Positions 58,578 to 64,000 of a stretch of 64,000 nucleotides of DNA are shown piece after piece (position 1 is the stretch's first letter; each line of letters begins with the position of its first letter). The stretch lies in the NCBI GenBank assembly GCA_008330645.1, contig VLTN01000023.1, positions 413,793 to 477,792 of the forward strand, read 5' to 3'. The notes under the pieces are model-generated. The model was not told where the DNA came from. It ran no database searches and saw nothing but the letters and a program-made list of their open reading frames with translations. The translations under genes and the position numbers were made by a program. This DNA comes from Cafeteria roenbergensis (taxonomy: Eukaryota; Sar; Bigyra; Bicosoecida; Cafeteriaceae).

Positions 58578-59402
58578 TTTGGTCGGGGCCGGGGCTGCCA
58601 GTGTGCGGCGAGCCGCTGCGGACGAGCTGCGCAGCGGTCAAAAGTACACATCTGCAAATTTTGCTAGAATCAGTTATGATCGTGAACCTGTATCGGTCGT
58701 ATCTCTACGCTGCCTTTTACCGCGTAGAGCCGCGTACAGCGTTCAATTCGCGATCCTTTCGAATATTTGGAACCACCCGGTTTAGGGCTCAACTTCTTTT
58801 TTGCTTCGATGTGCACGTTCTGCGGGGGTCCGGGGAGGCCAGGGGCGTGTCGTGCGGGCCAAGCAGGGCCACAGCGTGCCAACAGCCGCCGGGATCACTG
58901 CTCTGCCCGCTCAGTCTTGTGCCCGCTCCAGCGCAGTCGCAGGCTTTAGTCGTCCTCCGCGCGCTTGTCGCTTTGTGTTGTCACGCTGGGCGGCTCGAGC
59001 GTGGCCTTGGTTGGGCAAAGGACTCGTCAAGCAAAGGGCAAGGGCCCCATCAAGCGCGCCAAGCATTAACCACCCGAGCTCTGGCCTGCCGGACGTTGGG
59101 AGAGTCCGCGTGTGAGTGAAAGCACGAAAAGCTCTCACGTGGCCACAGTTTGGCGCGGTGGGGAGCGCACGGGGCCAGTCGACCCAATCATACAATACAC
59201 GGGGTGAGTTGCTTCAGCGGATGGGAGATGCGGCCGGCGAGTCTAGCGAAAACTGGAACCGGAGTGCGGTCAGGCACGATAGCTCGCATTTGCCACAGGG
59301 CTGGCTAGACCCTGGCCTCAATCTCCTTATCAAGCTGTTGGCGGCCGCTCAGCCCGTAGGACGGGAGAAGCACCAACTTCGCCCCCGCATTTAGGCCTGG
59401 CA
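58578..59402. other. Host flank of the element, mixed composition
   Basis: This 825-base region has no recognisable gene. GC falls well below the host norm at about 58640-58800 (for example GCAAATTTTGCTAGAATCAG), rises again, and then drops permanently at about 59400. The dip could be the promoter of the small membrane protein gene or a remnant of an older AT-rich insertion. Confidence 0.45.
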
Positions 59403-59532
59403 TGTTATAGTTTAATATATTTCTGGATATGATGATATTTCAGCGCGGCCAAAAATGTGTGTATAGTACTATACACACATTTTTGGCCGCGCTGAAATAT
59501 CATCATATCCAGAAATATATTAAACTATAACA
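59403..59532. repeat. Perfect 130-bp palindrome at element edge
   Basis: The arms 59403-59467 and 59468-59532 (65 bases each) are exact reverse complements with no spacer, base by base. The outer ends read TGTTATAGTTTAAT and, on the right, its complement ending in CA. The region could fold as one 65-bp hairpin. It marks the exact composition boundary. Confidence 0.97.
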
Positions 59533-59581
59533 GTGATTTTTCTCTGAATATATTGAAAACAGTGAAATATATTTGCCAAAA

Positions 59582-59808
59582 TATGTGTATAGTACTTATC
59601 GACGTCGATAAGTACCTATAAGTACCTGAAAATTCCCAGCAAGCATTACGGGATAAAAATTATCCAATGTTGCCAAAAAAGTCAGCGGGTAAACAAAATG
59701 TATGTATAGTACTTATCGACGTCGATAAGTACCTGGGAAATTCTCAGCAAGCATTGCCTGCTAAAAATTATCCAATGTTGCCAAAAAAGTCAACGGGTAA
59801 TTATCCCC
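59582..59808 (+). repeat. Imperfect ~115-bp tandem repeat with 24-bp palindromes
   Basis: Two consecutive copies, each starting with TATAGTACTTATCGACG, share CAGCAAGCATT and then AATTATCCAATGTTGCCAAA with a few differences. Each copy carries the same perfect 24-bp palindrome, at 59592-59615 and 59709-59732, centred on GACGTC. The TATAGTACT start also occurs at the centre of the 130-bp palindrome. Confidence 0.9.
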
Positions 59809-59925
59809 CATGCTGTACAGCGATTTTTGCAATAATTGGTTGAAAGCCATGGGGTACCCCCCATGGGTTCAGTGCAATTTCGGGTATTATTGCTCTGTGG
59901 GAGCATTTTGAGGATTAGCGGGAGT

Positions 59926-59974
59926 TGTCTCGGTTAATCCTTTTTCTCTATAGTAAAATGTATAAACCAAGACA
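59926..59974 (+). repeat. TCTA hairpin module, copy 1
   Basis: Arms TGTCTCGGTT (59926-59935) and AACCAAGACA (59965-59974) pair with one mismatch. The loop contains CTCTATAGTAAAATGTATA, shared with copies 2 and 3. The sequence GGGCTCTTATC follows, as in copy 2. Confidence 0.85.
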
Positions 59975-60101
59975 GGGCTCTTATCGTTTTGCACATGTTC
60001 TTTTAACTATGGGCAGTGTCAGGGAATCAGGGGTATAGTTGAGGTATCTGGGGAATTTGGGAGGTATTCTGGGGATTTTGTGTGTATAGCGTTAGTGGAG
60101 C

Positions 60102-60150
60102 TGTCCCGGTTTATCGGTTTTCTCTATAGTAAAATGTATAATCCGGGACA
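60102..60150 (+). repeat. TCTA hairpin module, copy 2
   Basis: Arms TGTCCCGGTT and ATCCGGGACA pair with one mismatch. The stem differs from copies 1 and 3 by changes on both arms that keep the pairing, while the loop core TCTATAGTAAAATGTATA is identical. Confidence 0.85.
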
Positions 60151-60217
60151 GGGCTCTTATCATTTTGTACACCATTTCAGACTATGGGGTATTCTGTGTG
60201 TATAGCGTTAGTGGAGG

Positions 60218-60266
60218 TGTCTCGGTTAATACTTTTTCTCTATAGTAAAATGTATAAACCAAGACA
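60218..60266 (+). repeat. TCTA hairpin module, copy 3
   Basis: The arms are the same as in copy 1 (TGTCTCGGTT/AACCAAGACA) around the identical loop core. A 22-base direct repeat containing TATAGCGTTAGTGGAG precedes both copy 2 (from 60079) and copy 3 (from 60195), so the unit was duplicated together with its upstream flank. Confidence 0.85.
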
Positions 60267-60450
60267 GCGTACAAAACACAACTGCAGTTTTTGGGGAAAG
60301 TCGTCGAAACTTTAGCGGGTACTGCGGGTTGGGGAATTACCAGGGTGGGGAAAAGGGGGAGTTTTGGTGGGTTTGTGTGTATACTAAAAATTCCTGTTAT
60401 CATCTTGTACAGGTGTGATAACGTTTTGGGGCGTTTGATGTCCTAAACGT

Positions 60451-60470
60451 TTTTTACTCTATTATAACAG
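60451..60470 (+). promoter_or_regulatory. TCTA promoter-like motif upstream of the HNH gene
   Basis: TTTTTACTCTATTATAACAG directly precedes the ATG at 60471, with TCTA at 60458-60461 inside AT-rich flanks. A TCTA core in an AT-rich context just upstream of start codons is the described late-promoter signature of Cafeteria roenbergensis virus, shared by mavirus genes. One instance is suggestive only. Confidence 0.5.
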
Positions 60471-61079
60471 ATGCCAGGACAGAGAGCACTTACTAAGGAC
60501 TATAACCGTCGTATTCGTGAACATGGTGAAACCCTGGACATTGAGATTAGTGACCCAGTGCTTTACCGAGACTTGATGACCATTGTGAAGAATCACCATG
60601 AATGGGAGGAGAGGAAAGAGGGAGTTGTTGGTCTCTCAATCCAAAGACATTCTATTTCGCATCAACTATGTTTGCATCTGAACTATAAAGATGGTCGATA
60701 CGATACAATCTCAGTTGCATCGTGTGTCTCTGGACGTGGGTGGACACCACTCCGGACAATCGCAGTGTCAATGCGCCATGAGGTTCATGAACAGAGAACT
60801 GAGTATCTTGATGCTAACCCGGTATGTTGTGCGTGTGGGAATTACTTTAATTTGGAAGTTGACCACACCGGGGGAATGGAATTTAAGGACTTGCGTGACG
60901 CATTTGTAAAAGAGCATGGGATTACGGACAAGCATTTTCACAAGAACGCTGACGGAAACCCTGCTTTCATTGACCGCGAACTGGCGACACTGTGGCGCAC
61001 GTATCACCTTGAGAACGCGAAACTCCAGACCCTCTGCAAGACATGTCACAAAGCGAAGACTTTTGGGTGGTCTGTGTGA
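60471..61079 (+). CDS. HNH-type endonuclease-like protein
   Basis: An intronless frame of 202 residues, unlike host genes in composition and codon use. The C-terminal half has a treble-clef/HNH layout: CCACG (Cys119, Cys122) and a following DH (131-132), then a ~55-residue helical insert with FIDRELATLWRTYHLENAKL, and a second zinc knuckle LCKTCHKAK (Cys189, Cys192, His193). Such domains usually bind one structural zinc and cut DNA with the D-H pair. The N-terminal half shows no known domain. In viral elements these proteins act as nicking or homing-type nucleases, or help genome processing; which applies here is unknown. The gene converges on the integrase gene with only one base between the two stop codons. 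Confidence 0.65.
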   Translation: MPGQRALTKDYNRRIREHGETLDIEISDPVLYRDLMTIVKNHHEWEERKEGVVGLSIQRHSISHQLCLHLNYKDGRYDTISVASCVSGRGWTPLRTIAVSMRHEVHEQRTEYLDANPVCCACGNYFNLEVDHTGGMEFKDLRDAFVKEHGITDKHFHKNADGNPAFIDRELATLWRTYHLENAKLQTLCKTCHKAKTFGWSV

Positions 61080-61080
61080 A

Positions 61081-62241
61081 TCATCGCTTCTCAGCATCTT
61101 TCAGCATCTTGGGGACGTCGCGTTTCAGATTCTCGACGGGTTCCCATGTTGTTTCTCCAGTCGTCCATTTGACCATCCATCCTGGTTCTCCATCCCTTGA
61201 TTGTTTCTTTAACAATCGGGAGATGTCCCACCGTGGCGCAGAGTCGCGGGTATTCTCCACACGTTCAACGAGTTGGAGGTCTTCTTCGTACTTGTTTCCA
61301 ACCCAGTCAGGACGAGGTTGTCCACGCTTTGCTACATATGGCGCACCACTGAGTCTGTAGACCGTTGATCCGAATGGCGTCGATGGTCTGAGAATCTTTT
61401 CAACACGATGAAGCGTCTTCGACCACTTCTCGCCGTCATTTGCAACTGCAGATTTGACGACCCGCACAGTATCTCCGACGCGGAAAGTGGGAGGTGTGGC
61501 CAATGCTGTCGCGCGCTTCTTTGTCCTTGCAACAACTCCCTCACGCTTTCCATCTTCGAGTGCATGGGCTTCGTTGGGTGTCATGTCGATGGTAATCTGG
61601 TAGGAGTTGTTGTAGACGTCAACGAGTTCCTGGAGATAGGATGGCCAATCGCGCGTACCCTTTGCGCGCATGCTCTTCCGAATCATTTCCTTCAGAATAC
61701 CGTTAAAGCGCTCTACTTGTCCGTTGCTCTGTGGCTTCCCAGGTAACGAGAGAATTTGTTTCACGTTGTGCCGTTTTAGCACAGCCTTGAACTTTTGGTT
61801 AATGAACTCCGTTCCCTTGTCACTGCGCACTGACCGAATGCCGTGAGCCTCAGACAAAAGGTTGTCCATTGCTTCCGCGACAGTGTCTGCTTTCTTGTTG
61901 AGCAGTGCGCGAGCATATCCTTTCTTCGAGAACAGGTCGATGCCCGTGAGGATGTACTGAATACCGTCCCAGCCAATAAGGCGGACATCTGCGAGGTCGA
62001 TTCCCATGACTCGTTGGGGCGCTCGAACAATTGTACTCCGCACAACGCGAGGCCTCTTTGGTCGTAGATACATTTGATACGTTTCTTGTTTCCGGAGCCA
62101 CTCTGTTACTTGGCGCTGTGAGACGCCGAGACCCTCTTCGTTGGCCTTGCGCCATACCTTGTCTCTGCCAAATGTGAACCCGCGTGTATACCAGAGGTCA
62201 TACAGTCCGTCTTCTTGTGTTTTAGTCAGCGGTGGTACCAT
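61081..62241 (-). CDS. Retroviral-type integrase with C-terminal chromodomain
   Basis: An intact 386-residue frame. An N-terminal helical region (residues 1-60) is followed by an rve core with all three catalytic acids: Asp82 in GIDLADV, Asp141 in RSDKGTEF and Glu177 in NGQVERFN. Asp141 and Glu177 are separated by 35 residues, the classic D,D35E spacing. After a basic linker, residues ~250-300 resemble the integrase C-terminal SH3-like domain (FRVGDTVRVVK). Residues ~335-380 form a chromodomain (WDISRLLKKQ, WMVKWTTGETTWEPVENL). This is the integrase type of Polintons/Mavericks and mavirus-like virophages; the chromodomain may steer insertion by reading histone marks. No disabling change is visible, so it could still be active. 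Confidence 0.93.
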   Translation of the reverse strand: MVPPLTKTQEDGLYDLWYTRGFTFGRDKVWRKANEEGLGVSQRQVTEWLRKQETYQMYLRPKRPRVVRSTIVRAPQRVMGIDLADVRLIGWDGIQYILTGIDLFSKKGYARALLNKKADTVAEAMDNLLSEAHGIRSVRSDKGTEFINQKFKAVLKRHNVKQILSLPGKPQSNGQVERFNGILKEMIRKSMRAKGTRDWPSYLQELVDVYNNSYQITIDMTPNEAHALEDGKREGVVARTKKRATALATPPTFRVGDTVRVVKSAVANDGEKWSKTLHRVEKILRPSTPFGSTVYRLSGAPYVAKRGQPRPDWVGNKYEEDLQLVERVENTRDSAPRWDISRLLKKQSRDGEPGWMVKWTTGETTWEPVENLKRDVPKMLKDAEKR

Positions 62242-62242
62242 T

Positions 62243-62289
62243 GTGTTCTATAAAGGGGCTCCGCCAAAGGGGCTTCGCCCCTTTAGAAC
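62243..62289 (-). terminator. Competing GC hairpins between capsid and integrase genes
   Basis: AAAGGGGC and GCCCCTTT (62266-62284) form a stem with a 3-base loop. The same GCCCCTTTAGAAC arm can pair instead with GTTCTATAAAGGGGC upstream (from about 62243). It lies in the ~165-base spacer downstream of the capsid stop and just before the integrase start. A 3'-end/polyadenylation hairpin, as used by mimivirus-like viruses, is a reasonable reading. Confidence 0.5.
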
Positions 62290-62405
62290 CCCGACCAAGG
62301 AAGTCTGAATGTGTGTTTACACGCCTTTAATGTAAAGACTTGTGAACATTAATGAGTCCAAATACCGTCGTGTGGGGGCATGACCCCACTTTGCGTCAAA
62401 AGCGC

Positions 62406-64000
62406 CTAAGACGAAATCATGGCCATCAACTGCTTCTTGGTCAACTTCCCGAGACCCTTCTTCGATGGCTTCCCACCAGCAGTCCGCAGAACATCACCAC
62501 CGGATACGTCTCCGTAGCCCATGCTCTTAGCAAATCCACCTGGCAGACTTGAATCACCAACGTAGGCTGAAGCGACAGGATGGTTGCGCGCCTGTCGGAT
62601 TGCCTTCCTCACGCGTGGAGTCTTGAGCCAGGATGTGAAGGATGTCCATGCGTTTTGGATGGGTCGAGGAATAGACCAACCTCCCATGATGGCATTCATC
62701 TGAGAGGAATCGTCCGTAAAGACGAACTCTGAATCCAGGAGAGTTCCTGGAGAATAGCGAGGGCGCCACTCTGTGAATACATCACCCTCCTCGTACACAA
62801 AGACGTCATAGAGGAGGAAGACCCGGAGATAGCAGACCTCATCCGTGGATGCACCCTTGACAGTGACAACGGACAATTCCATCAATCGTCTCACCAGACC
62901 CGTTCATGATCTCGTCTGTGAGTCCGAGGTCAGAGGGGCGTACGTAGAAGATGGAACCGGCGCCGCGCTGCGTACTGCCAATTCCCGAGGGAATGCCTGC
63001 AAACGTTGCCTCGCGCTTGGAGTACCCGTTTCCGGTGGAAATCTTGTATAGTTCCGTGGGGGTTACGCGGGCACCGAGAAGGTCAGTTTTGTTCCCGATG
63101 TCAATGGACACGCTCTGAATCGGACAGAACCGATTAGGGGAATGCCCACTCAGTACCAGGGATGTCAACACCAGCGTCCGTCTTGAGGAGGCGGGGACGC
63201 TCAACGTAGATAGCAAGCATGTTCGGTACACCGGTCATCGTGAACGTCTTCGATTCCAGAGGAGGCTGATTACATTCGCAGAGACGACATGGCGGTCGTT
63301 GCTGATACGCTGGATGCGCGGACTGCCCCATGCAAGAGACTCAGGAATCTCGAGGGGCGGTGGACGGGTTCCACGAGCGGACAGTGAGAGTATGAACCGC
63401 AGAAATACAGTCAACGACCAGACCCTTACCGAGAGCCGCAGCGCCGGCGGCAGGAACGATTTCCGGGTTGAGGTTTGCGCACCGCGCAGCAATGTCCCCA
63501 AGTTGGAGAGTAACCTTGACGGTGTTCAAATCCTTGAAGGGCTGCGCAAGGCGCGGGTTGTTGTACTGAAGAGGGTTGGCCATGAGAAGGTCGTTTACGA
63601 AGAACCGGACACGAATCTGGTAGTCAGTGTCCGTTGCTACGTTAGGCACAATCTCATAGTTGTAGGCACCGCCGACACCCCGAGTCTTTCCGACGCTGGT
63701 AGAACTTGCGCCTGCCTTGAGAGGATCATTGAGTACATTAGCGGCAAAGATATCGTAGTCATCTGTCTCAGGAGTGCTGGTTGCCATCGCAAGTTTCTCG
63801 TACGACGTCGAGTTGAGGTGGATTTGTGGTAGCATGTCGTGAACACGCGTGGTCGTGGAGAACTCGTTCAGTTGAACTTCAGCTACATCAATGCAGTTGT
63901 TTCCGGCTGCGGCCTGGAGCCCAATCTTGTCCCTTGAACAGGGCAAGCATTGAAGCCCGCCTTGCAGCCCGGTCAGCACCAGCAAAACGCCCGCGGGGAA
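62406..64000 (-). pseudogene. Major capsid protein gene (double jelly roll), broken by frameshifts, 5' end outside window
   Basis: The gene runs leftwards from the window end to a stop at 62406, and its reading frame changes several times. Capsid-like sequence is found in order in five frame segments: about 63985-63345 (VRFFVNDLLMANPLQYNNPR, then DLNTVKVTLQLGD), a short piece to ~63270 (IPESLAWGSPRIQ), ~63270-63140 (TMTGVPNMLAIYVERPR), ~63135-62885 (VSIDIGNKTDLLGARV, then ELYKISTGNGY and GAGSIFYVRPSDLG) and ~62880-62406 (VCYLRVFLLYDVFVYEEGDV and a Gly/Lys-rich tail). The order matches double-jelly-roll capsid proteins of Polinton-like viruses and adintoviruses. The breaks near 63345, 63270, 63138 and 62883 have no splice signals. 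Host frames nearby are clean over many kilobases, so decay is likelier than sequencing error, though homopolymer errors cannot be excluded. Confidence 0.75.

Follow-up and report, generated by a model that had tools for sequence, protein, structure and literature searches.

Perfect terminal palindromes of integrated mid-GC virophages in Cafeteria roenbergensis change in both arms alike and may reflect hairpin genome ends

A 64,000-nucleotide stretch of Cafeteria roenbergensis DNA (C23:413793-477792, the window hereafter; C1, C5, C23, etc., are contig labels of the source assembly) runs at its right end into an integrated virus, and this locus raises the question of how such a linear element copies its ends. 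The window contains one end, the one nearest the integrase, of a mid-GC (guanine-plus-cytosine) endogenous mavirus-like element (EMALE), a virophage type already published. Its unusual part is a terminal palindrome, which was absent from an earlier note on this DNA. As far as our literature search reached, the terminal palindromes are new, and the element itself is known.

As the earlier note had claimed, composition switches sharply, from a GC fraction of 0.707 at window positions 1-59402 to 0.492 at 59403-64000. The best statistical split fell at 58637, within an AT-richer host stretch bearing a U5 spliceosomal RNA gene, so that composition alone was insufficient to place the border. It was therefore placed at the start of a perfect palindrome of 65 + 65 nucleotides (nt), making base 59403 the start of the provirus. 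The two arms have no spacer between them, and the center reads GTATAGT/ACTATAC. No other perfect palindrome of the 64 kb has arms longer than 12 nt, placing the terminal one far beyond chance. The element continues past the contig end at 64000, and since the window ends there too, its remainder could be read only in other copies.

We searched the organism's own assembly (167 contigs, 36,303,456 bp) for further ends, all counts being lower bounds. The 130-bp palindrome of the window was found unchanged at 15 ends, this one included, with different host flanks. The copy at C1 carries it at both ends and is bordered by a target duplication of 5 bp. Of the 33 ends examined in three mid-GC families, 26 were perfect palindromes (family I, 21/28; family II, 3/3; family III, 2/2), with nine sequences among them; the recombinase genes of families II and III, 42% and 36% identical, had led to these two families. 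The six family I versions have arms of 45, 65, 66, 66, 67, and 69 nt. The family II palindrome, found on C149, C35, and C137, is 90 bp long and of other sequence, and family III comprises both ends of the C5 element (approximately 182.3 to 197.9 kb), with 94 bp on the left and 92 bp on the right. Overall, the nine versions have arms of 45 to 69 nt (90 to 138 bp in total), TG..CA edges, and no mismatch within any of them. They begin with TGTTATAG, TGTTGTAG, or TGTCATAG; the outer edge is conserved, as is the center within a family. Six of the nine were folded as single strands and gave gap-free hairpins. In the variants at C58:11506 and C23:18774, each arm itself contains an inverted repeat.

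An assembly artefact caused by inverted reads was rejected as a general cause, because the same 130 bp with the same end base occur at 15 ends with differing flanks and two further families have other palindromes. A subtelomeric location was also set aside: many copies lie near contig ends, but repeats are reported to break assemblies (PMC8547959; statements credited here to articles by accession rest on excerpts of them), and C1:229814 is internal. A preference for small-RNA genes was rejected as well: the window copy alone has U5 as a neighbor, none of the 14 other family I loci with the window-type (type A) palindrome gave an Rfam match, and none of 15 gave a transfer RNA.

The most telling observation is that whatever distinguishes one palindrome from another is found in its two arms alike. 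Arms vary between ends and never within any of the 26 perfect ends, and mid-arm changes, including replaced segments and single-base gaps, are found in both arms in all nine perfect versions. In the C5 element, comparison of left with right arms shows 8 substitutions and 1 gap in 47 positions (approximately 82% identity), with no difference within either end, and the element at C23:18774-38373 has two unlike palindromes inside one target duplication. Each of these ends thus keeps its two arms the same without regard to its partner. All four elements that had two readable ends and direct flanks showed duplications of 5 bp. The C29 element was left outside this count, its two host flanks (C29:7076 and C29:32762) being inverted copies of each other, through misassembly or a real inversion. 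Old-looking copies, such as that on C76, have unlike arms, so that it is probably in the course of the viral cycle that the arms become equal; in-place conversion of the arms on the chromosome is unlikely to be the sole cause, since both C76 and C31:109253 look old and have unlike arms.

From these sequences we find it rather probable that the free mid-GC EMALE genome is linear with hairpin ends. Each cycle would rebuild these from a single arm, and the integrase would open them at the TG/CA edges. A hairpin end copied through in replication would become a duplex palindrome, and this would be cut at its center and each half closed on itself, as with bacterial telomere resolvases. As both arms of the next palindrome would thus derive from one arm, the arms would remain identical while the ends diverge. 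In the closed hairpin of family I, the junction between outer arm and repeat would read CA/GT. The rve integrase would nick after the CA, either at the base of the hairpin or once the palindrome has opened, to give the required 3′ end. After this end is joined to the host, the opened hairpin would be copied by gap repair, leaving host, 5 bp, TG-palindrome-CA, and repeat, which is the order observed.

Which enzyme might perform the central step is a more tentative matter. The element's own tyrosine recombinase is a possible, if doubtful, candidate, the alternative being a giant-virus or host enzyme. A tyrosine recombinase gene accompanies each palindrome family: family I on C1, C23, C29, C58, C86, and C88, family II on C149 and, as fragments, on C137, and family III on C5. 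The same search found none on the eight contigs whose low-GC EMALE ends were read (C55, C2, C96, C112, C122, C74, C50, and C16). We tentatively propose that a Cre/Xer-like recombinase might cut the palindrome center and close the hairpins and the rve integrase reopen their base, which would make the mid-GC EMALEs hairpin-telomere virophages.

Several points weigh against the hairpin-end reading or against this role of the recombinase. Every sequence compared comes from one assembly, and we infer hairpin closure from integrated copies. Of the 20 contigs with a family I palindrome, only 6 yielded the recombinase, most elements seeming to be cut by contig ends; it was not found on C35 (family II), and C34 bears the gene with no palindrome match. 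Its fold resembles Cre, Xer, and lambda integrase. The fold matches listed were mostly recombinases and topoisomerases IB, with TelA at an E value of 1.3 with an earlier, poor model; no protelomerase was among the best 50 listed, and the recombinase alignment matched none of the PDB sequences searched. Its box II residue is Gln; the corresponding residue is Tyr in TelA and ResT and, as a rule, His in recombinases (PMC3558466). Seven of the 28 family I ends are imperfect, through decay, collapse, or assembly. Short stem-loops are present close to the tip of low-GC ends as well, following a run of C. Finally, mismatch repair of the hairpin stem could also equalize the arms with no central cut; given this second route, central cutting is favored, not proven.

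Other mechanisms were weighed against the same ends. In rolling-hairpin replication of the parvovirus type, the hairpin would be nicked at its base and copied with its center uncut, and the recombinase would serve another purpose. This we consider unlikely. Integrated copies do contain the fully opened palindrome, and parvovirus ends are branched, which the within-arm inverted repeats at C58:11506 and C23:18774 recall; yet hairpins folded from one strand can keep mismatches, as do those of poxviruses, which are resolved by another route (PMC8956199). At our ends no poxvirus-type mismatched hairpin was found, 26 of the 33 being free of mismatches and the other 7 appearing decayed, collapsed, or cut. 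Pfam profiles recognized no Rep-type nickase among 14 proteins encoded by the C1 copy, although such a scan argues only weakly for absence.

The palindrome might instead be a site at which the tyrosine recombinase circularizes the provirus, excises it, or brings it into giant-virus genomes, with no hairpin ends at all. Tyrosine recombinases use inverted-repeat sites and the fold here is Cre/Xer-like, and integration into giant-virus genomes has been proposed as the role of virophage tyrosine recombinases (PMC8547959). The perfect arms of 45 to 69 nt, however, reach exactly to the integrase edges, and new sequences appearing in both arms are left unexplained, making this reading quite improbable. 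Sites of these recombinases need only short arms around a core. It is highly improbable that these are ordinary inverted-repeat transposon ends whose palindrome selection maintains only because integrase or replication proteins bind there twice: the outer edges (TGTTATAG and close forms) are conserved as integrase sites would be, but selection on binding does not predict the concerted mid-arm changes of all nine perfect versions.

Hairpin telomeres made by central cutting have precedents in bacteria and phages, where protelomerases cut the replicated palindrome at its center and close each half (PMC3558466). Phage N15, Borrelia, and Agrobacterium share with the mid-GC EMALEs a palindrome at the replicated end and an enzyme of the tyrosine recombinase type at hand, and the perfect terminal palindrome of the N15 type was found here at 26 of 33 ends. 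They differ in that the enzyme here has a Cre/Xer/lambda-like fold with Gln, not Tyr, in box II and is combined with an rve integrase, and in that the hairpin here is a proposed one. Among eukaryotic proviruses, those of Ectocarpus phaeoviruses have a telRL-like palindrome at which reads turn back (PMC13236599); these are giant viruses whose palindrome is internal and which integrate by a tyrosine recombinase and have a separate N15-like resolvase. The virophage DSLV3 is described in a review as having palindromic repeats at asymmetric positions of its two ends (PMC10301787). No report of hairpin ends in a virophage was recognized among the literature matches listed, and the main texts of PMC8547959, of a second EMALE paper, and of a virophage taxonomy paper contain no words beginning with palindrom or hairpin.

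The identity of the element was established on the C1 copy (C1:229814-248770), which is assembled at both ends, measures 18,957 bp at 49.3% GC, and has inverted terminal repeats of 833 bp that are 99.2% identical between ends. It encodes an HNH/DUF3223 protein, rve integrase, capsid, penton, putative protease, a P-loop ATPase-like protein, a 272-residue protein at the MV14 position, a coiled-looking protein, a P-loop protein, a Peptidase_S74 fiber-like protein, a 255-residue protein, tyrosine recombinase, a 1073-residue primase-helicase, and a weakly ankyrin-like protein. The earlier note had looked to further viral genes, a matching terminal repeat, and a capsid search reaching beyond cellular proteins, all of which this copy provides. 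Its capsid protein matched PDB 6g45 (E value of 9e-40 over 12-602) and its penton 6g41 (4.5e-33 over 60-328), both of which we take to be mavirus capsid proteins. The primase-helicase has PriCT_2 and Herpes_ori_bp domains, CyRepA1 scoring 152 bits, under its cutoff of 200. The ATPase-like protein has a P-loop, its Pox_A32 match being weak and below cutoff, and the protease was named from position and appearance alone, with no Pfam match and no meaningful PDB match. No profile matched a protein-primed polymerase (pPolB), which the earlier note had also sought, among the C1 copy proteins; the profiles also miss a pPolB-looking frame on C55. Likewise, a PF03175 search of the whole genome gave no match, nor did it in control genomes.

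The description of the element as an integrated double-jelly-roll virus in a high-GC protist thus stood, and its Polinton-like alternative was set aside: capsid and penton are of the mavirus group, the Polinton-like capsid comparison being with Pfam profiles only. Likeness of capsid and penton, inverted terminal repeats, and a short target duplication are mavirus-group traits, although the 5-bp duplication fits both groups, because mavirus and Polintons alike make duplications of 5 to 6 bp (PMC8547959). The order of HNH gene, integrase, and capsid is as the earlier note described and unlike that of mavirus. It does not mark a distinct element type, since the gene content and order of the C1 copy match those of mid-GC EMALEs published in 2021, with the integrase near the 3′ end, a tyrosine recombinase, a long primase-helicase, and no pPolB (PMC8547959). 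The mid-GC EMALEs of types 5 to 8, described in Cafeteria burkhardae, which is very probably the host here too, share a GC content of 47 to 53%, within which the C1 copy falls, the penton before the capsid, and short target duplications, and EMALEs lack introns (PMC8547959). The C1 copy likewise has a tyrosine recombinase besides its rve integrase, whose position fits the mid-GC clade, and we saw no gene difference from types 5 to 8.

Mavirus and the low-GC EMALEs share with this element a related capsid and penton, inverted terminal repeats, and an rve integrase, and differ in integrase clade and gene position and in their reported pPolB (PMC8547959). Eleven low-GC ends (both of C55, both of C2, two of C96, and those of C112, C122, C74, C50, and C16) showed seven to nine C, then GAAGAATG and a bulged stem-loop, and none had a terminal palindrome (0/11). 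Low GC was measured for C55 and C2, the other ends being assigned by terminal-repeat similarity; 10 of 21 terminal-repeat matches and a third low-GC class (C8:151630 and C69) lie outside this count. The stem-loop, folded for one end, has one bulged base. Judged by eye, paired changes distinguish its stem in the two types of terminal repeat, and a second stem-loop follows it. Beside the integrase of C55 is a 615-residue open reading frame, pPolB-like by eye, with no profile or PDB match; pPolB is reported in low-GC EMALEs (PMC8547959).

The coordinates of the features are collected below.

Table 1. Features of the window, imperfect family I ends, and target duplications.
Feature	Location	Strand	Remarks
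Terminal 130-bp perfect palindrome, element end	59403..59532	.	TG at start, CA at finish
Left inverted terminal repeat	59403..60411	.	Match to right end of C1 copy
Motif with 24-bp perfect palindrome, two copies	59577..59734	.	Palindromes 59592-59615, 59709-59732
81-nt repeat, three copies	59895..60267	+	Ends complementary by eye
202-residue protein, DUF3223 and HNH-like C terminus	60471..61079	+	
386-residue rve (DDE) integrase	61081..62241	-	
Major capsid protein gene	62406..64000	-	Broken frames; past contig end
U5 spliceosomal RNA gene	58677..58792	+	Approximately 610 bp from element end
Imperfect family I end	C29:7076		Small gaps
Imperfect family I end	C76		Unlike arms
Imperfect family I ends	C58:30363, C108		Middle missing
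Imperfect family I end	C110		Extra half, two mismatches
Imperfect family I end	C135		Half alone
Imperfect family I end	C31:109253		Degenerate
Target duplication	C1		AGAGC
Target duplication	C58		AGACC
Target duplication	C23:18774-38373		AGCTC
Target duplication	C5		GGCCC

Within the window, a near-copy of the center of the terminal palindrome (AAAATGTGTGTATAGTACT) precedes each of the motifs with a 24-bp palindrome. The ends of the 81-nt repeat are complementary by eye, forming a stem-loop, and its core has one match in the C5 element, likewise a stem-loop. An end of that element (L065:313-1531) carries a stem-loop array with five copies of one kind and two of another; in the five, the inner part is constant and the outer stems vary in a paired way. 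Among the imperfect ends, the half palindromes of C110 and C135 stop at the center or at most 1 base from it, as a central cut would leave them, and the C108 end has its outer arm from one palindrome version and its inner arm from another.

The C terminus of the integrase, which looks chromodomain-like by eye, gave no profile match. The capsid gene of the window is 95.1% identical to that of the C1 copy at the DNA level, with 13 gap openings; its broken frame fits either errors at the contig end or decay. In ten other copies the capsid frame is open, at 98 to 100% identity: in eight over its full length, and in two from residue 19 onward, the residues before it lying in a different frame. A capsid protein search gave five matches, three in Cafeteria roenbergensis at 80 to 90% identity and the others at 99% and 33%, and the same genome holds further capsid types at 26 to 33%. 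Searches of viral contigs for relatives of the capsid, the recombinase, the integrase, the primase-helicase, and the palindrome center found none, nor did searches of phage records for the recombinase and capsid. The fiber-like protein (L013:752-2074) has 441 residues, with the Peptidase_S74 chaperone domain, typical of trimeric fibers, at residues 311-366. On C88, the penton gene of one EMALE copy is interrupted by the end of a second (95% identity across 612 columns, L023:1639 onward against L012:5848-5238), a virophage inside a virophage.

The concerted terminal palindromes offer a concrete, testable answer to the question of how linear ends are copied in virophages that lack pPolB, and they bear on the purpose of the second recombinase of mid-GC EMALEs. 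Hairpin ends, if true, would remove the need for the protein-primed polymerase reported in the low-GC relatives and would couple hairpin opening to integration of the retroviral type. If the mid-GC EMALEs are hairpin-telomere virophages as tentatively proposed above, one host species would harbor two related virophage lineages with two solutions to the copying of linear ends.

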